From contig QMMZ01000126.1 of NCBI GenBank assembly GCA_003647525.1, positions 1 through 6,346 on the forward strand: a stretch of DNA of 6,346 nt, in the 5' to 3' direction. Source of the stretch: Deltaproteobacteria bacterium (GTDB lineage Bacteria > Desulfobacterota > Desulfobacteria > Desulfobacterales > ETH-SRB1). The position numbers and the translations under genes are program-made. The notes beneath the pieces were generated by a model. It did not search any database. It was given only the letters and a program-made list of their open reading frames with translations, and was not told the DNA's origin. This document shows, one piece after another, positions 1 through 6,346 of this stretch; the first letter of the stretch is position 1, and every line of letters begins with the position of its first letter.

Positions 1-99
1 CATGGGTTGTTTGTGCCCGTGGCCTTCGGCTGCAGCAACAGCGGATAAAGTCATGGTTAAAATAAGAGAAAAGACTAAAATAGTAATTTTCCTTTTCAT
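1..99 (-). CDS. Exported His-rich protein, N-terminal 33 codons only (runs off the window)
   Basis: Seen: an ATG at 97-99 opens a minus-strand frame that stays open to the window edge. It encodes a short basic start (MKRK), a hydrophobic stretch (ITILVFSLILTMTLSAV) and a signal-peptidase-I-like Ala-rich end (AVAAA), followed by a mature start EGHGHKQPM. An AAGGAGG Shine-Dalgarno at 108-114 is 8 nt from the ATG and fixes the start. The product is therefore expected in the periplasm or outside the cell. It is the last gene visible in the riboswitch-led operon, 37 nt after the 86-residue gene. The histidines next to the cleavage site could bind metal. Inference: in this context a periplasmic cobalt chelatase of the CbiK type or another metal-handling protein is possible, but no catalytic domain is visible, so the function is unassigned. 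The existence of the gene is fairly sure. Confidence 0.75.
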   Translation of the reverse strand, partial: MKRKITILVFSLILTMTLSAVAAAEGHGHKQPM

Positions 100-136: not shown

Positions 137-397
137 TCACTCACACAATTGGATCTCACATCCCGTAAGCCTGAGCCCGGAATCATTGCCGATCTCAGCA
201 ATCAAACAAACAATGTGTTTCATGCCCTTTGTTGTCAGCAACCACCATGCATCCATGACATCGAAATGGCCAAATCTTGAAGAGACAATCTCCACCTTAT
301 CTGCCTTGATCTTTAAGTTCTTAACCGCTTCTGTCATATCAAAATCTTTTTCAATATTTTCTTTTCCAACAACATAAATAATTACCCCTGTCTTCAT
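137..397 (-). CDS. Uncharacterised 86-residue operon protein
   Basis: I do not recognise this protein. The frame starts at the ATG at 395-397 behind a strong AAGGAGGT site and ends in TGA at 137-139. There is no signal peptide or membrane segment, so it should be cytoplasmic. The sequence alternates likely beta strands (TGVIIYVVG, KVEIVSS, MKHIVCLIAEIG) with helices (MTEAVKNLKIKA, VMDAWWLLTTK). This suggests a small alpha/beta, perhaps Rossmann- or DsrE-like fold; that reading is by eye only. Three cysteines (C64, C80, C85) lie in the C-terminal third and the last two flank EIQL near the very end, so metal or thiol chemistry is possible. It sits between the btuF-cbiZ fusion and an exported His-rich protein with short gaps, so it is probably co-transcribed under riboswitch control. 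The gene is well supported, the function unknown. Confidence 0.72.
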   Translation of the reverse strand: MKTGVIIYVVGKENIEKDFDMTEAVKNLKIKADKVEIVSSRFGHFDVMDAWWLLTTKGMKHIVCLIAEIGNDSGLRLTGCEIQLCE

Positions 398-471: not shown

Positions 472-603
472 TTAATTTCTGCTGATCGCTTTGGTAACTC
501 TTTCTTTTAATTCTTGAAAAATATCTTCCATTTTTTCTACCTCATCCTGAGGCAAAGACCATTCAACAAGCTGTTCAATGACATCCTGAGCACACGCGGC
601 ATG
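472..603 (-). other. Out-of-frame 3' continuation of the btuF-cbiZ gene (apparent -1 frameshift)
   Basis: In the -1 frame relative to the upstream gene, codons from the CAT at 601-603 to the TAA at 472-474 encode 43 residues beginning HAACAQDVIEQLVEW and ending KERVTKAISRN. The composition is that of a normal soluble, helical, Glu/Lys-rich C-terminus. The in-frame tail over the same bases is Leu/Met/Arg-rich, lacks acidic residues and looks non-coding. The switch point coincides with a run of five A on the minus strand (plus T at 604-608). One extra A there would give DKKHAAC and a continuous product of about 692 residues. Possible explanations are a homopolymer error in the read or assembly, a genuine mutation, or ribosomal slippage on AAAAAC. 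The site (T AAA AAC) is not a canonical XXXYYYZ heptamer, so an indel is the simplest view. Confidence 0.6.
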
Positions 604-2549
604 TTTTTATCAGCAATCAAATCTTTTGTGGTTTCTATCTTTTTTCCGGCTATCTCCTCAGCCATATCACTACACCAGAGTTTAAAAAAGCCAAGATCGT
701 TAACCAGCCCATTTTCATAGTCATCACTTATAGCAAAAGAAGATTCGATAAAGCCGGCATAGCGAGGCTGAAGAAGTATCTCTTCAAAAGCCTTAATCAA
801 ATCGTACTTGCCGACGTTACATTCATATCCATCCACGGAAATCAATCCAAAGCCACTGATTTTTCTGTCTTTCAGACGTTGAAAAACATTGCGTTGGGAA
901 ACCATCCCGTTTTGTTTATACATCGCTTCCTGAACAGCTTCATATACGGCCTTTGCAATCAGTTCCCCCATCTTTGTGTGGCCGCCGGCATTATTGATTT
1001 CACTTCCTTTGCCCTCCACAACGATGATATTATCGGTTCCTGTTCCGGTAGCCTGGTGAATGAGGGGAGTACAACTGCTTCTGATATCAAAATCCTGTAA
1101 CGTTGCGGTTTTAGCCTCAGTGGCGCTGATTATGGCTCTTGTCATCGCACGCTGTGATAGCTTCATATTGGTTAAAAGAATGATATTTATGGTCCCGGGC
1201 TCATAAAACCTCCCTTCATCAACTGACATTCTGACCGCATTTGATTTAACTCCGGCAGTTACCAGGGCATATACCTTCATATCTTTAAACCGTTTTTGCT
1301 TTACCGCCAGGTTGTCCATATCCGCACCCGTAAAGATGAAACTGACTTTATCTTCCGATTTACCGATGACCTGATATACCCGCTCCCTTATTTTCTTCAA
1401 TCCGAGTTTATGTCCAAGCGCCCAGCATGGAGGAGGAGAATAATGGTTTCCTACAGATATGATATGGTTGCGTTGTCCTTCGAGGGAGGAAACCACGGAT
1501 AATGGTGACTTGAATTCGACAATCAGTGTCTTGTTCACAAAATCATGGATTTTGCTGTATATAATACGTGCATCTTCTATGTAATTGAGGTCAAGATCAA
1601 AATGATGTGATTTAAATATATGATCTTTAAAGACTTGTACTTCTTCCCTGGAAAACTCATTTTCATAAATCCTGGCAAAAAGCCATGAAACAAAATAACC
1701 GGCACGGGTGGATGCCCTGCAGGTCAGATCGCATGGAAAATAGAATATCTTACCGTTTTTTACTGCCTCCACATCCTTCCAGCCGGGCTGGTCGAAAAAC
1801 TTCCTGGCTGCTTCTCTATCACCGCCGCAGCCATAAACAATCTGTGGGTTAAACCTGATCCATTCCTCTTTGGTTACAAGAACAATATTACCCTTTTTGT
1901 TGAGCTTCGGAGGAATACCGCCGGCGATTCTGATATATTCATTTTGAAAGGAATCATCACCGGGGGTCATCACCGGGTCTCGCCCCATGAGGCGAATAAC
2001 CCTTTTTCTCTTTGATTCCGGAATGCTTTCCACCTTCCCGGCAACAATTTGAAGCTCATTCCTTATATCTTCGATAAGCGTTTCCGCTTGCTTTTGCCTG
2101 TTAAAAATTTTGCCCAACAAATCGATATTTCGATAGATATCTGAAACAGACTTTGCATCAAGATTGATTAATTGACATTTTTTGTTTTCAAATCTTTTTC
2201 TCACTTCTTTATGAAGACCGGACAAGAAAATCACATCAGGCTGTATCGCTTCAATAGCCTTAAGGGATGGTGAGAAGAAGCCGCCAACGACAATTTTATG
2301 AACCGTCTCAGGCGGATAGGTGTCGTAATGGGTAACGGCCTTGACCGCATCTCCTGCCCCTATTCTGAAAATAATTTCGGTTATGCCGGGTACCAGGGAA
2401 ACAACCCTCAATGGCCTTTTTGTAATTGAGATATGGTTGCCCTGAACATCAGTAAACTCTATTGGATGGGAAAATACCGGAACCGCACTCCAGAGAATTG
2501 CAAAAAAAATAAAGGAGCATAGATAGTAGTAATGTTTGACTTCTTTCAT
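537..2549 (-). CDS. cbiZ: Secreted BtuF-like corrinoid-binding domain fused to CbiZ-like adenosylcobinamide amidohydrolase
   Basis: Counting from the ATG at 2549, residues 1-27 are a Sec signal peptide (basic start, YYYLCSFIFFAILW core, end near VFS). Residues about 28-300 match a class III periplasmic binding protein (Peripla_BP_2/BtuF type): VVSLVPGITEIIFRIGAGDAV, then KAIEAIQPDVIFLS and FNPQIVYGCGG. Residues about 345-545 match CbiZ: GNHYSPPPCWALGHKLGL, FTGADMDNLAV, ALVTAGVKSNAVR, ATGTGTDNIIVVEG and GGHTKMGELIA. CbiZ hydrolyses the amide of adenosylcobinamide to adenosylcobyric acid for corrinoid salvage. Residues about 550 onward form an extension I do not recognise. The gene follows the TonB receptor and shares its riboswitch. 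The signal peptide would place both domains in the periplasm, which is unusual for CbiZ. A TTG at 2574-2576 could add nine residues but would precede the signal peptide awkwardly. The in-frame stop at 537-539 probably follows a frameshift near 604-608. The fusion is certain from the reading frame; substrates are inferred from the families. Confidence 0.9.
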   Translation of the reverse strand: MKEVKHYYYLCSFIFFAILWSAVPVFSHPIEFTDVQGNHISITKRPLRVVSLVPGITEIIFRIGAGDAVKAVTHYDTYPPETVHKIVVGGFFSPSLKAIEAIQPDVIFLSGLHKEVRKRFENKKCQLINLDAKSVSDIYRNIDLLGKIFNRQKQAETLIEDIRNELQIVAGKVESIPESKRKRVIRLMGRDPVMTPGDDSFQNEYIRIAGGIPPKLNKKGNIVLVTKEEWIRFNPQIVYGCGGDREAARKFFDQPGWKDVEAVKNGKIFYFPCDLTCRASTRAGYFVSWLFARIYENEFSREEVQVFKDHIFKSHHFDLDLNYIEDARIIYSKIHDFVNKTLIVEFKSPLSVVSSLEGQRNHIISVGNHYSPPPCWALGHKLGLKKIRERVYQVIGKSEDKVSFIFTGADMDNLAVKQKRFKDMKVYALVTAGVKSNAVRMSVDEGRFYEPGTINIILLTNMKLSQRAMTRAIISATEAKTATLQDFDIRSSCTPLIHQATGTGTDNIIVVEGKGSEINNAGGHTKMGELIAKAVYEAVQEAMYKQNGMVSQRNVFQRLKDRKISGFGLISVDGYECNVGKYDLIKAFEEILLQPRYAGFIESSFAISDDYENGLVNDLGFFKLWCSDMAEEIAGKKIETTKDLIADKNMPRVLRMSLNSLLNGLCLRMR

Positions 2550-2620: not shown

Positions 2621-4609
2621 TTAGAAATCATACCTCAAGCCGAGGAAAAAACTCCTGCCAGGCATGGGATAGCCCTGAACGTGCTCACAATCCTTGTCAA
2701 AGAGGTTTTGAATCTCGCCCCTCAAGGTGATCCCTCCATATTCTTTAAAATCAAAGATCCTTTTACTGACAGTCAAATTGGCAAACGTAAAGCGGCCCTG
2801 TGTTATCGTCGTGTAGGTGCCGCCTTCGTAATCCGTAATATCCTGTTTCCCTGTGTAGTAAAGGTTAAGGTTGGCGGAAAAGCCGTCAAGATCAGAGACT
2901 GTGATACCATACGATACATGAAGAGCCGATGTGTATTTAAGGTCTTCATTAGCTTCCTTATCTTTGTATTTTGTAAGATAGACAAAACTGACGTAAGGCT
3001 CGACCTGATAATCCCAGGAAAAAAGAGAGCCAATATCGTACGAAAGCTCACCTTCCACACCTTCTACTTCAGCTTTTCCAAGGTTTTTCCATGAGGTATC
3101 ACCACCCGCTGTCGTGTAGGTATCTATTTTATCCTTAAAATCGGTATGAAAATAGGTGAGGGAAGAATCAAAAGAAGCGTATGAGAAGTCTATACCCGCT
3201 TCATATGTCCCGCTTTTTTCCGGTTTCAAATTGGGGTTGCCCACATAATGTGTAGGCCAAAACCCCGAAGTAGTGAAATCCGCAGCCAACTGCTTTGCAG
3301 AAGGCATCTTGAATGCCTCGCCGTAGTTTGCCCTCAGCTTCAGCCAGTCTGTGATGAGATAGGCCGCTCCAACCCGCGGAGAAATGTGATCATCACTCTC
3401 TTTCTTCCCGTCATCTTTCATATCCACTTCATATTCGTCATATCTTACGCCGCCGGTGATTATAAACTTTTTATCAAAAAGCCTGGTTTTGGCCATGAGA
3501 AAACCAGCAGGATTGTCATATTCAGATTTTTTCGGATCCCAGGAAGTTTCTATTTCATAGTTTACCCAGTCAACGCCGGCGGTAACAAGAAAATATTCCT
3601 GGTTGCAAGATACCTGTACCTGTGCCCCCCTCTGATCGGTTTTCTGTTCGTCTGGAATACCATCATCCCAACCGTTGGGATCGCTTGCCGTGGGATCAAC
3701 CCACTTGTCCTTATCCTTACCGTCAAAATATCTGGCCTGCCAGGTAAAGAGACCATCCGGAGTTCCGCCGTCATAAATAAAGTCGATTGCCCTGTTGCTT
3801 GAATTTTTATAATCGTCCAGATCGTTCTGGCTCAAGTATCCTGAATCGCCTACATGATCGGCATCATAATAACTGTAAATGACGCCGATGCGATTTTCGG
3901 GCAGGAACTCATAACCGAGATTCAGGCTGCAGTTTTCCTTGCGATCATATCCGGTGTTGTAAAACTTCTCTCCACTGGCAGTATCGTAATCGTCTTTAGA
4001 ATTTCTGGTAAAACTGCCGGAAAAATCAAACGATTTATACTTTCCTGAAGCCCCTGCACTTCCTTCCTTGTAGCCAAAACTTCCCAGTGTTCCCTCAGCA
4101 AACGCAGAGGGTTTATCCTTTCCCTGCTTGGTAATAACGTTTATGACTCCTCCCATAGCGGCAGATCCGTATTGAACGGAGGCGGGTCCCCTTATTATTT
4201 CCACTCTTTCTATGTTTTTGGTGCTGATTTTGGCTGTGTTACCGGTACCGGCCCTCCGGCCGTTCACAAGAATCAGCACACGACCCTCAAGGTCATTGCC
4301 GTGGGTTTCTGTCCTGAAGCCGCGAATACCGACTGAATTTAAGGCACCCGGGTATCTTTGACTGTGCCCAATAGCCTTTTCAGTCAATAATTCTCCTAGA
4401 TCCTTAGCAGAAGAATTTTTGATCTCTTCCGCATTAATAATGGTTACATTGGTGGTAATCTCCTTTTTCTTTTCTTCTACCCTGCCTGCGGTTACCACCA
4501 CCTCTTCCATTGTTACCGAATTGCTCCCTTCCAGCGCAAAAATCGGTACAGGTAAGGCAAAAAACATAAATACTGATAATACTGTCACACAACTTAACAA
4601 CTTGTTCAT
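2621..4609 (-). CDS. btuB: TonB-dependent outer-membrane receptor, BtuB-like (corrinoid uptake)
   Basis: The 662-residue product has a signal peptide (1-25, ending PIFA before LEG) and a TonB box (EEVVVTA, 35-41). A plug domain follows to about residue 165, with GIRGFRTE, VLILVNGRRAG and VEIIRGPASVQYGSAAMGG. A beta-barrel with alternating aromatic strands and the NPNLKPEKSGTYEAGI motif near 458-473 completes it, ending in Phe (LRYDF), the usual signal for barrel assembly. The length is normal for this family. An acidic loop (about 295-327, with DGKDKDKW and DDGIPDEQ) may bind calcium, as loops of E. coli BtuB do; this is inferred. TonB-dependent receptors move scarce ligands across the outer membrane using TonB-ExbBD energy. 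A cobalamin riboswitch directly upstream and a BtuF-like gene downstream point to corrinoids. The start ATG at 4607-4609 has an AGGAG site about 10 nt upstream. The receptor type is near certain; the corrinoid ligand rests on context. Confidence 0.93.
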   Translation of the reverse strand: MNKLLSCVTVLSVFMFFALPVPIFALEGSNSVTMEEVVVTAGRVEEKKKEITTNVTIINAEEIKNSSAKDLGELLTEKAIGHSQRYPGALNSVGIRGFRTETHGNDLEGRVLILVNGRRAGTGNTAKISTKNIERVEIIRGPASVQYGSAAMGGVINVITKQGKDKPSAFAEGTLGSFGYKEGSAGASGKYKSFDFSGSFTRNSKDDYDTASGEKFYNTGYDRKENCSLNLGYEFLPENRIGVIYSYYDADHVGDSGYLSQNDLDDYKNSSNRAIDFIYDGGTPDGLFTWQARYFDGKDKDKWVDPTASDPNGWDDGIPDEQKTDQRGAQVQVSCNQEYFLVTAGVDWVNYEIETSWDPKKSEYDNPAGFLMAKTRLFDKKFIITGGVRYDEYEVDMKDDGKKESDDHISPRVGAAYLITDWLKLRANYGEAFKMPSAKQLAADFTTSGFWPTHYVGNPNLKPEKSGTYEAGIDFSYASFDSSLTYFHTDFKDKIDTYTTAGGDTSWKNLGKAEVEGVEGELSYDIGSLFSWDYQVEPYVSFVYLTKYKDKEANEDLKYTSALHVSYGITVSDLDGFSANLNLYYTGKQDITDYEGGTYTTITQGRFTFANLTVSKRIFDFKEYGGITLRGEIQNLFDKDCEHVQGYPMPGRSFFLGLRYDF

Positions 4610-4752: not shown

Positions 4753-4791
4753 TATAGACTTTCAGATAATTATTTATCTGAAAAGTCTATA
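4753..4791 (-). other. Long hairpin directly after the B12 box
   Basis: Plus-strand arms 4753-4769 (TATAGACTTTCAGATAA) and 4774-4791 are complementary over 17 bp with a single extra A, around a 4-nt loop. In the RNA it follows the B12 box immediately, where cobalamin riboswitches commonly carry the P13 arm whose loop can kiss L5. No U tract follows, so it is not a terminator. Assignment as P13 is inference. Confidence 0.6.
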
Positions 4792-4930
4792 GGTCTTCTG
4801 GCTTTCGGATCACACTACTTACCGCGCCTTCCCATCCTAATTGGACAGTGACATTTTGCGGTTTTCGTCCCCGATTACAGCGACGGGCTCGCTCCCGATT
4901 TTCACGGGATTTCCTTAAAGTCACCTAAAA
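4785..4930 (-). ncRNA. Cobalamin (B12) riboswitch aptamer
   Basis: Reading the minus strand, conserved elements come in the right order. GGTGAC is at 4920-4925 and AAGGAAATCCCGTGAAAATC follows it. The CCCG/CGGG arm lies at about 4893-4910. The GAGCCCGTCGCTGTAATCGG region, with the usual CTGTAAT, and then CACTGTC and ATGGGAAGGCG follow. AGCCAGAAGACCT, a match to the B12 box AGYCMGRAGACCT, is at 4791-4803. Aptamers of this class bind adenosyl- or other cobalamins and lower expression of transport or synthesis genes. Here the element sits in the leader of the receptor gene, followed by an intrinsic terminator, so control at transcription is likely. Exact boundaries are approximate. Confidence 0.93.
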
Positions 4931-4940
4931 TCAATTTTTA

Positions 4941-4968
4941 AAATTACACTTTTCCATGAATACGTCAA
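4941..4968 (-). promoter_or_regulatory. Candidate sigma70-type promoter of the corrinoid operon
   Basis: TTGACG (4963-4968) resembles a -35 box and TAATTT (4941-4946) a weak -10 box, with a 16-nt spacer. Transcription would begin around 4933-4936, just before the first conserved riboswitch segment. The -35 box is good, the -10 poor (three of six consensus bases), so the position fits better than the sequence. Confidence 0.4.
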
Positions 4969-5099: not shown

Positions 5100-5444
5100 T
5101 CAAAGCGGTAAAAATTGCACACGATTTATCAAGTCTTCGGGTTCGCCGGCTTTTGAAATGATCTCCAGATCGTTGATGCAAGCGCCGATAGAAATTTGCA
5201 GTTGGTGGGAATAGATCACCCCGCCAAAAGTAACTCCTTCTTTTTGTCGTCTGGTTGCCTCAGCGATTAGATCATCATCTTGTGTGAAAAGTGCTCGACC
5301 CAGTTCAGTAGCTCGATCCAATAATGCTGGATCGTTCATATCATCGGCGCTGTCTTCATAGGCTGTAATAACATCTATACCACGTAAGCGAAGTCCCTCG
5401 CTTATAGCTCGCGGCACATTATGATCCATATAGAGCGCAAGCAT
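5100..5444 (-). CDS. DUF5615 PIN-like protein, probable toxin of a type II toxin-antitoxin pair
   Basis: The 114-residue product begins MLALYMDHNVPRAISEGLRLRGIDV. This has the layout of the DUF5615 (Mut7-C/PIN-like) family, where an LDENLP-type strand carries the first acidic residue; here it is D7 with H8 in place of the usual Glu. Further acidic positions fit the PIN-like site: D38 and the D56-D58 cluster in LFTQDDDLIA. A strand GGVIYSH and a helix ISIGACINDLEII follow. PIN-like nucleases of this family are usually paired with DUF433 antitoxins, and such a gene lies directly upstream with 2 nt between its stop and this ATG. An AAAGGA site 6 nt upstream of the ATG lies inside the end of the upstream gene, so translation is probably coupled. 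RNase activity is predicted from the family only. No terminator is obvious after its stop. Confidence 0.85.
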   Translation of the reverse strand: MLALYMDHNVPRAISEGLRLRGIDVITAYEDSADDMNDPALLDRATELGRALFTQDDDLIAEATRRQKEGVTFGGVIYSHQLQISIGACINDLEIISKAGEPEDLINRVQFLPL

Positions 5445-5446
5445 AA

Positions 5447-5767
5447 TCAGATCAATCCTTTGGATTTCAGCCGGGCAGCAAGAGGCGTTTGTCCTGTGAT
5501 TTTCCGGGTCTGATTTACAAAAGCAAGCCTTTGTTCAATGTCCCGATCAAGCACATCCCGATGATCCCAGTAGTAGGCTAATGCCGAGTATATTTGCCCC
5601 AGGGTAAGATAGGGATGCTGGAAATGCAGTTCTTCCGGACTCCAGCCGTAGGCTGTTTTTTCCAGTACTATCTCAATTACCTTCATGTTTGTCCCTGCAA
5701 TAATGGGGACGCCTTTTTCGTCTAAGACTACATGTTCATATTTTGTTTTTGCAGAAGTCAAAGGCAT
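5447..5767 (-). CDS. DUF433 family protein, probable antitoxin of the DUF5615 partner
   Basis: The 106-residue product carries the DUF433 signature. A short strand pair (HVVLDEKGVPIIAGTNMKVIEIV, residues 12-33) leads into a helix-turn-helix-like part (SPEELHFQHPYLTLGQIYSALAYYWDHRDVLD, 43-74), with the typical pattern of a hydrophobic helix before YPYL-like and QIYSALAYY elements. The family is considered a winged or simple HTH antitoxin and is the VapB45-like partner of PIN-like toxins. It should bind its own promoter and neutralise the downstream product. The C-terminus (ITGQTPLAARLKSKGLI) is basic and probably the part that contacts the toxin; this is inferred. The start ATG at 5765-5767 has a GAGGTG site 6 nt upstream. 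It is the first gene of the pair and lies inside the two 38-bp repeats. Confidence 0.85.
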   Translation of the reverse strand: MPLTSAKTKYEHVVLDEKGVPIIAGTNMKVIEIVLEKTAYGWSPEELHFQHPYLTLGQIYSALAYYWDHRDVLDRDIEQRLAFVNQTRKITGQTPLAARLKSKGLI

Positions 5768-6007: not shown

Positions 6008-6346
6008 TCATTTTGCGCTTTCCTTCAACGGATTTATAGTGGTAAAACCAATGACTTCTGCAACCCTGCAAAGGTTGTCATCAGCCACCACAAAAGACCA
6101 ATCCTTTTCAGATATGAGACTAAAGGCACCGAGATGTAATGCATCCAGAGCTTTGAGACCGTATGTTCTTCCATATTTTTTAATAAAAAGTTCAGCTTGC
6201 TCAAGAACAGCATGCCCTAAAGGTTCGACATTGAACCCTGCAATTTGATTCTCAAAAGAATCGACTGCCGTGTTCAATTGCCCTTCATCCAGCTCTTTGT
6301 TACGAAATCTCCTGAAAACGGCGCTTATGAATTCCAGCCGTCCCAG
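6008..6346 (-). CDS. PIN-domain (VapC-type) protein, C-terminal 112 residues
   Basis: The frame is open from the window edge at 6346 to TGA at 6008-6010. It begins LGRLEFISAVFRRFRNKELD, matching the PIN segment that carries the conserved Glu (E5 of this fragment). It continues to GLKALDALHLGAF, with the third catalytic Asp at fragment residue 68, and FVVADDNLCRVAEVIGFTTINP, with the fourth acidic site (D89/D90) and the usual closing strand. These are hallmarks of VapC-type RNases, metal-dependent toxins that cut tRNA or rRNA. The N-terminal strand with the first Asp lies beyond the edge, as would any VapB-like antitoxin gene. A shorter frame from TTG at 6275-6277 would lose the conserved Glu, so the gene is better read as continuing outside. 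No intact antitoxin is seen downstream. Confidence 0.82.
   Translation of the reverse strand: MGRLEFISAVFRRFRNKELDEGQLNTAVDSFENQIAGFNVEPLGHAVLEQAELFIKKYGRTYGLKALDALHLGAFSLISEKDWSFVVADDNLCRVAEVIGFTTINPLKESAK

Follow-up and report, generated by a model that had tools for sequence, protein, structure and literature searches.

The window analysed here, a stretch of 6,346 nucleotides, carries on its minus strand, in this order, a cobalamin riboswitch, a gene for a TonB-dependent receptor, a gene in which btuF and cbiZ are fused, an 86-aa ORF and a truncated, signal-bearing CbiK-type gene (Table 1). In the single frame of the fusion gene, for which an alternative upstream start (TTG at 2576) is possible, an initial annotation had read a signal peptide, a BtuF-type domain and a CbiZ domain, and all three were found there. 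The adjoining receptor scores 175.9 bits (1.3e-51) against the BtuB model TIGR01779, below the cut-off of 599.7, and a TonB-hemin model outscores TIGR01779 on this protein. The 86-aa ORF and the CbiK-type start closely resemble the starts of clusters in the metagenome-assembled genome (MAG) relatives G001 and G002, which comprise the 86-aa ORF, a CbiK-type gene, btuC, btuD and btuF and, further on, a stretch with cbiG. Because its last two ORFs match these cluster starts, we read the window as holding the front of a corrinoid uptake operon. A full-length relative of the CbiK-type gene, in G001 (L141:938-1819), matches PF06180 (3.4e-71). Upstream of the riboswitch, a pair of genes for DUF433 and DUF5615 (PIN-like) and a weak match to a PIN domain are reminiscent of toxin-antitoxin pairs.

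Table 1. Features of the 6,346-nucleotide window, with the basis of each assignment
Feature	Position	Strand	Basis or remark
5' end of exported CbiK-type chelatase gene, first 33 codons, cut by window end	1..99	-	Translation
86-aa ORF, no assigned function	137..397	-	Near-identical ORF in MAG relatives
btuF-cbiZ fusion gene, 670 aa	537..2549	-	ORF, profile matches, structure model
C-terminal helical region, residues ~551-670	540..899	-	Without Pfam match
CbiZ amidohydrolase domain, residues 345-539	933..1517	-	Profile match and residue conservation
T453 codon, proposed nucleophile	1191..1193	-	Fold similarity; weak profile alignments
BtuF-like binding domain, residues 25-299	1653..2477	-	Profile match, docking-site alignment, fold
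Predicted signal peptide, residues ~1-27, VFS/HPIEF	2469..2549	-	Same form in homologues, hydropathy
TonB-dependent outer-membrane receptor	2621..4609	-	Plug and barrel domains; BtuB-like by context
Cobalamin riboswitch RF00174, upstream of receptor	4773..4962	-	87.6 bits, cut-off 31.5
DUF433/DUF5615 pair and weak PIN match	5100-5767 and 6008-6346	-	Domain matches

Distribution and surroundings of the fusion

The fusion belongs to a large family. A search with its residues 300-640 retrieved 1896 of 5380 candidate proteins at E<=1e-3, and the survey for the same fusion that the initial annotation had called for found it repeatedly: both Pfam domains are present in 113 of the 120 matches listed (of the 1896), and 68 of 80 fetched loci carry the fusion, while the other 12 have only a CbiZ lacking the binding domain. 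L061 has such a CbiZ frame without binding domain. One fusion (L073) and two free-standing forms (L108 and L115) escaped the ORF picking, and all three are outside the residue and neighbour counts given below. In a tree of CbiZ domains, built with a midpoint root from 69 of 127 aligned rows and with long branches flagged (L009, L011 and Rhodobacterales among them), 38 fusions form one group with a support of 99/98, beside a long free-standing form of ~390 aa, and the short free-standing forms stand apart. As the fusions form one clade, one origin fits the sample, and the family is apparently of single origin. That the frame is an ordinary cytoplasmic CbiZ, joined to a binding domain by accident or by mis-assembly, could be suspected because the window is a fragment, and is refuted by the recurrence of the fusion in these loci and matches and by its single clade, so that we regard this explanation as hardly credible.

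Genome surveys, in which frame length is a mere stand-in for fusion, place long CbiZ frames around the relative G003. CbiZ occurs in 107 of 291 genomes of its class, with 96 of 125 matches in frames of at least 600 aa; the figures for its phylum are 49 of 247 genomes and 32 of 51 matches, the two genome samples overlapping in part. In the phylum of L005 (Ignavibacteriales) CbiZ was found in 7 of 296 genomes and in that of L011 (Lutispora) in 37 of 299, the longest frames being 553 and 497 aa, respectively, with no frame of fusion length in either. No BtuF-CbiZ fusion or exported CbiZ is described in the CbiZ literature searched, an earlier mention being possible, and within that literature the fusion is an undescribed form of a known enzyme. 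Database names of the fusions give either half or both, and none among the matches listed mentions export; the family is therefore easily misread in surveys of the B12 pathway. A precedent in architecture is CbiS (NF038002), in which CbiZ is likewise joined to another corrinoid function, an alpha-ribazole phosphatase, whereas the partner in the fusion is a binding protein. An identity with CbiS was rejected because the fusion scores 75.6 bits against NF038002, for which the cut-off is 250.

The surroundings of the fusions point to corrinoid uptake. Of 73 fusions, 57 have a TonB receptor no more than 8 kb away and 34 have btuC/btuD inside their gene run. Of the 69 fusions that have a gene following them, 33 are followed by a separate btuF. 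Next to the free-standing CbiZ of Qingshengfaniella, in contrast, the order is the classical one, btuB-btuF-btuC-btuD-cbiZ. No btuFCD is found beside the fusion in L001-L003; the relatives of the window have a separate btuF with btuC-btuD on other contigs (L141 in G001, L138 and L140 in G002, L139 in G003). Riboswitches were scanned for in 14 hand-chosen loci of the 80, as well as in L001, L002, L003, L010 and L138-L141: one is on the strand of the fusion in all 14, in L002, L003 and L010, and in the window, and none was seen in L001, which begins inside the receptor gene.

Predicted export and the probable part played by the fused binding domain

The fusion of the window has a predicted Sec-type signal peptide, and the same holds for the family. 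As a measure we took the highest hydropathy mean over any 15 residues among the first 75, with starts that are longest-ORF picks. All 74 fusions reach 1.85 or more, and none of the free-standing CbiZ does, neither the 12 from the loci nor the 120 from the protein search (sets that may overlap), among which the highest is 1.67. In L118 the peak is just inside the binding domain and the N terminus looks signal-like by eye. A signal of the form P[AV]FS/YPV recurs among homologues. Lack of a predicted signal peptide, which the initial annotation had named as an observation that would count against it, is thus not what we found. The (-3,-1) cleavage rule was discarded as evidence of export, since, besides 74 of 74 fusions, it accepts free-standing CbiZ too (7 of 12 from the loci and 115 of 120 from the protein search). 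We also rejected a second membrane segment that would put CbiZ back in the cytoplasm, because a 19-residue window above 1.6 after residue 100 occurs in just 2 of 74 fusions (L051 and L106), both times marginally.

The strongest argument for export, as far as sequences can make one, comes from three-part chains of 933-986 aa with the architecture SBP-CbiZ-Cterm-BtuF, of which there are 18 distinct ones (L088, L093, L104, P0242-P0257 and P0264; 20 rows minus the duplicates L093 = P0244 and L104 = P0248). Since these chains run on into a second, transport-type BtuF, their CbiZ would be flanked by two periplasm-type domains. Cleavage in the periplasm is therefore a reading well supported by sequence, the location itself being predicted.

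What the fused binding domain binds is read mostly from its setting. It is a class III SBP domain with a BtuF fold, a fold that heme and siderophore binders fit equally, and it scores 53 bits against the NCBIfam equivalog NF002894, below the cut-off of 234. The residues of E. coli BtuF that contact the ligand, which we take to be W66, F162/F168 and W196, are mostly altered in it (W66 to F, F162/F168 to M and W196 to I/V), and binding of corrinoids is for this reason assumed from context. It has three conserved cysteines of its own (Cys 241, 273 and 277, in 73, 72 and 72 of 74 fusions), for which, as for the cysteines of the C-terminal region, disulfides or a role as metal or cobalt ligand are candidates.

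Another difference from BtuF, besides these cysteines and the attached enzyme, concerns docking. When aligned to E. coli BtuF, all 47 separate BtuFs compared (40 from fusion loci and 7 from loci without fusion) have the pair of glutamates contacting BtuC, E72 and E202, against 9 of 74 fused domains; these counts come from related, non-independent sequences and so are not probabilities. The fusion of the window has K97 and E228 at these positions. Because the pair is mostly lost and a separate btuF is often the next gene, delivery to the ABC transporter is probably not the task of the fused domain. The same contrast, seen inside single chains, would be hard to explain otherwise: in the 18 three-part chains both glutamates are found in the C-terminal BtuF of all 18 and in the N-terminal domain of 7. 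These counts go against the picture, drawn in the initial annotation, of a fused protein that itself hands over to the transporter, and with the docking pair lost and a separate btuF adjoining, capture is more likely to be coupled to cleavage and import to be left to another protein. The fused binder would thus probably feed its attached enzyme, while the separate BtuFCD would import the product.

A fused domain that still works as a BtuF, docking on BtuCD so that cleavage and import become one step in one protein, would agree with its BtuF fold, with the nine fusions that keep both glutamates and the one kept in the window, and with the lack of btuFCD beside the fusion in L001-L003. We nevertheless consider it unlikely, given the loss of the pair in 65 of 74 fused domains and its retention in every separate BtuF, the two-SBP chains in which only the C-terminal domain has the pair throughout, and the relatives G001-G003, which carry a separate btuF with btuC-btuD and in which 4 of 4 of these closest separate BtuFs have both glutamates.

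The CbiZ domain and its putative chemistry

The CbiZ domain of the window matches PF01955 over its full length (profile 1-191 of 191; 179.6 bits, cut-off 27). In this it resembles free-standing CbiZ of the archaeal and Rhodobacter type, from which the fusion differs by its signal, N-terminal binder and C-terminal extension, the free-standing forms compared here being without N-terminal hydrophobic signal. Of the 21 positions common to all CbiZ groups sampled (short, long, Rhodobacterales and Bacillus CbiZ), the domain of the window keeps 19, including every polar one. A comparison with 53 non-fused CbiZ gives 30 positions conserved to 95% or more, of which 26 are retained here; the four that have changed are Gly or Ala. 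The motif T453-I454-N455 and ATGTGTD at 500-506 are retained, and across the family the polar set (S354, T407, T431, N437, R440, T453, N455, T501, T503, T505 and D506) is kept in 74 of 74 fusions. A loss of conserved CbiZ residues, the other observation that would have spoken against the initial annotation, is not seen apart from two glycines (G359Q and G442S); at position 359 the glycine is kept in no fusion.

These two widely shared glycines, together with the low confidence of loops 435-439 and 491-503 in the structure model, are what could be said for a CbiZ domain that no longer hydrolyses and has become a second corrinoid-binding or sensing module. We judge this very unlikely, because every polar position common to all CbiZ groups is kept throughout the fusions, and in a dead domain the loss of such positions would be expected.

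How CbiZ might cleave is suggested by its fold. In a model of the free-standing P0144 (m6a6a000594b5), the fold is shared with amidases of the DmpA/NylC/ornithine acetyltransferase (OAT) type, with which there is no sequence-level match; a search by sequence found no solved CbiZ structure, and a fold search with the whole fusion was uninformative on the CbiZ part, as the matches were all taken by the binding domain. This fold assignment applies to the CbiZ family and is independent of the fusion. In weak profile alignments to DmpA/NylC/OAT (P 0.029 from a mixed alignment; two other alignments gave 0.2 and 0.13), T453 stands opposite the threonine of the NTT motif. We propose from this modelling that CbiZ would act as a DmpA/NylC-type N-terminal-nucleophile amidase in which T453 would be the nucleophile and might be set free when the chain cuts itself between G452 and T453.

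The region that follows CbiZ is also a property of the family, being matched in 71 of the 73 other fusions. The long free-standing CbiZ has a tail with which it aligns collinearly and weakly (hhalign P 0.028). Its cysteines, a CxC and one more, are kept in 59-61 of 74 fusions; the window has C577 and C626, with Y575 in place of the first Cys of the CxC.

Proposed cleavage before import and the possible fate of the product

Taken together, these data lead us to consider it probable that the gene product is a periplasmic corrinoid amidohydrolase fed by its own binder, with a separate BtuF importing the product; we infer the actual location of the fusion protein, its substrate, its catalysis and its hand-over. 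The TonB receptor, under riboswitch control, would carry corrinoids over the outer membrane, and the BtuF-like domain of the exported fusion would bind them and present them to the attached CbiZ, which would hydrolyse the amide that holds the nucleotide loop, yielding cobyric acid. As a rule the fused binder would no longer dock on BtuC, and a separate BtuF would pass the product to BtuCD; inside the cell, CbiB, CobU and CobS would rebuild the cell's own cobamide. Of the earlier interpretation, the export signal, the conserved polar residues of CbiZ, the corrinoid context and the rebuild genes have thus held up, and delivery to the ABC transporter by the fused domain has not.

Genes with which the hosts could make a cobamide out of cobyric acid are widespread, among them cobS, one of the genes that the initial annotation had suggested looking for. 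Among 27 fusion-bearing genomes, hand-picked from 107 CbiZ-bearing ones mostly for large contigs and with G001-G003 included, CobS was found in 26, CbiB in 25 and CbiG in 26. As CbiG is a marker of ring synthesis, salvage in these hosts would come on top of synthesis. In the L138 cluster of G002, cobS and cbiB are close to btuFCD: the order is btuF, btuC, btuD and then, after one opposite-strand ORF, cobS, an aminotransferase gene, cbiB and an AP_endonuc_2 gene, so that cobyric acid once imported would meet CbiB at once. The AP_endonuc_2 gene (L138:11939-12730) resembles that of the remodelling enzyme CbiR, and in this genome an exported CbiZ would coexist with a CbiR-like enzyme.

Characterised CbiZ, so far known as intracellular enzymes, act on adenosylated corrinoids, which would speak against a periplasmic enzyme if such forms stayed out of the periplasm. 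A reason for export can nevertheless be suggested. Sulfate reducers, in which the fusions are common, are known for purinyl cobamides. The CbiZ of R. sphaeroides cleaves purinyl pCbl, not Cbl, as stated in the CbiR paper (PMC7733943). A hydrolase in the cytoplasm is able to act on the cobamide that the cell has made for itself. Export would avoid this: cleavage outside the cytoplasm would keep the enzyme from the finished cobamide, and an exported hydrolase would answer the own-product problem by compartment. CbiR, as the fusion would, starts cobamide remodelling, and differs in superfamily and in the bond cut. Mok et al. 2020 call it unclear how cells with CbiR spare their own cobamide and note that a coupling to uptake is possible (PMC7733943); the words periplasm and signal are absent from the main text of that paper. 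A close relative bears the name EthSRB1. Eth-SRB1 and Seep-SRB1a form one family, and some Seep-SRB1a species do not synthesise cobalamin and might rely for it on their archaeal partners (PMC10553843). Given this kinship and the fusions in sulfate reducers, trimming of corrinoids before import may shape such partnerships.

A different use of the trimmed corrinoid is suggested by the genes near some fusions. Of 73 fusions, 16 have a CobN-like gene at a distance of 8 kb or less and 13 have one inside the gene run; it is the next gene after 11 of 69. At fusion loci, 15 of 18 CobN-like proteins of more than 1000 aa combine a hydrophobic signal at the N terminus with a membrane segment at the C terminus. 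Of the three at loci with only long CbiZ, two have neither export feature and L114 has both. The predicted location of the partner thus tends to follow that of CbiZ. CbiK-type genes at these loci are mostly without signal, clear signals being present in L089, L099, L123, L126, L141 and the window. The exported fusion might serve to salvage corrin or cobalt rather than to remodel cobamides, CbiZ trimming the loop and a neighbouring exported CobN/HmuS-like or CbiK-type chelatase removing or exchanging the metal. This would agree with the CobN-like neighbours, with the exported CbiK-type gene into which the window runs, and with the presence in the hosts of CbiG of the anaerobic corrin pathway, which to our knowledge does not need CobN. 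The layout of these 15 CobN-like proteins is also that of HmuS, a heme de-chelatase with membrane segments at both ends (PMC12583661). HmuS offers a parallel of membrane-anchored tetrapyrrole chemistry on a TonB-delivered substrate, but it is not homologous to the fusion and its substrate is heme, not corrin. CobN is missing from most loci, btuC/btuD are the commoner partner (34 of 73), and corrin action of such CobN-like proteins is putative, so that we hold metal salvage as the general function to be improbable.

The preferred reading, a periplasmic amidohydrolase with its own binder, may be extended to some of these operons. We suggest tentatively, as a speculative possibility, an extracytoplasmic corrinoid workshop in Desulfobacterota, with a non-docking binder, a self-processing exported CbiZ of the N-terminal-nucleophile type that takes off the nucleotide loop and, in some operons, an exported HmuS-like CobN or CbiK that removes or exchanges the metal before import. 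If this were true, foreign corrinoids would be dismantled before import and the cell's own cobamide would never be exposed to the hydrolase.

Several of the loci show further genes. In L123, genes for DUF2162, MotA/ExbB, DUF2149 and a carbon-nitrogen hydrolase come after the CobN-like gene (5203-9126), an HmuS-like gene set in a corrinoid setting. Carbon-nitrogen hydrolase genes (PF00795, ~530 aa) lie beside both types of CbiZ (L123:1861-3453 and L112:10165-11751) and might provide a second amide-cleaving step on corrin side chains. The long free-standing CbiZ of L112-L117 (~390 aa), which has no signal, is a possible cytoplasmic counterpart of the fusion; its neighbours include, besides the carbon-nitrogen hydrolase, a ChlI/VWA gene in L112 and a CobN without export features in L113 and L116.
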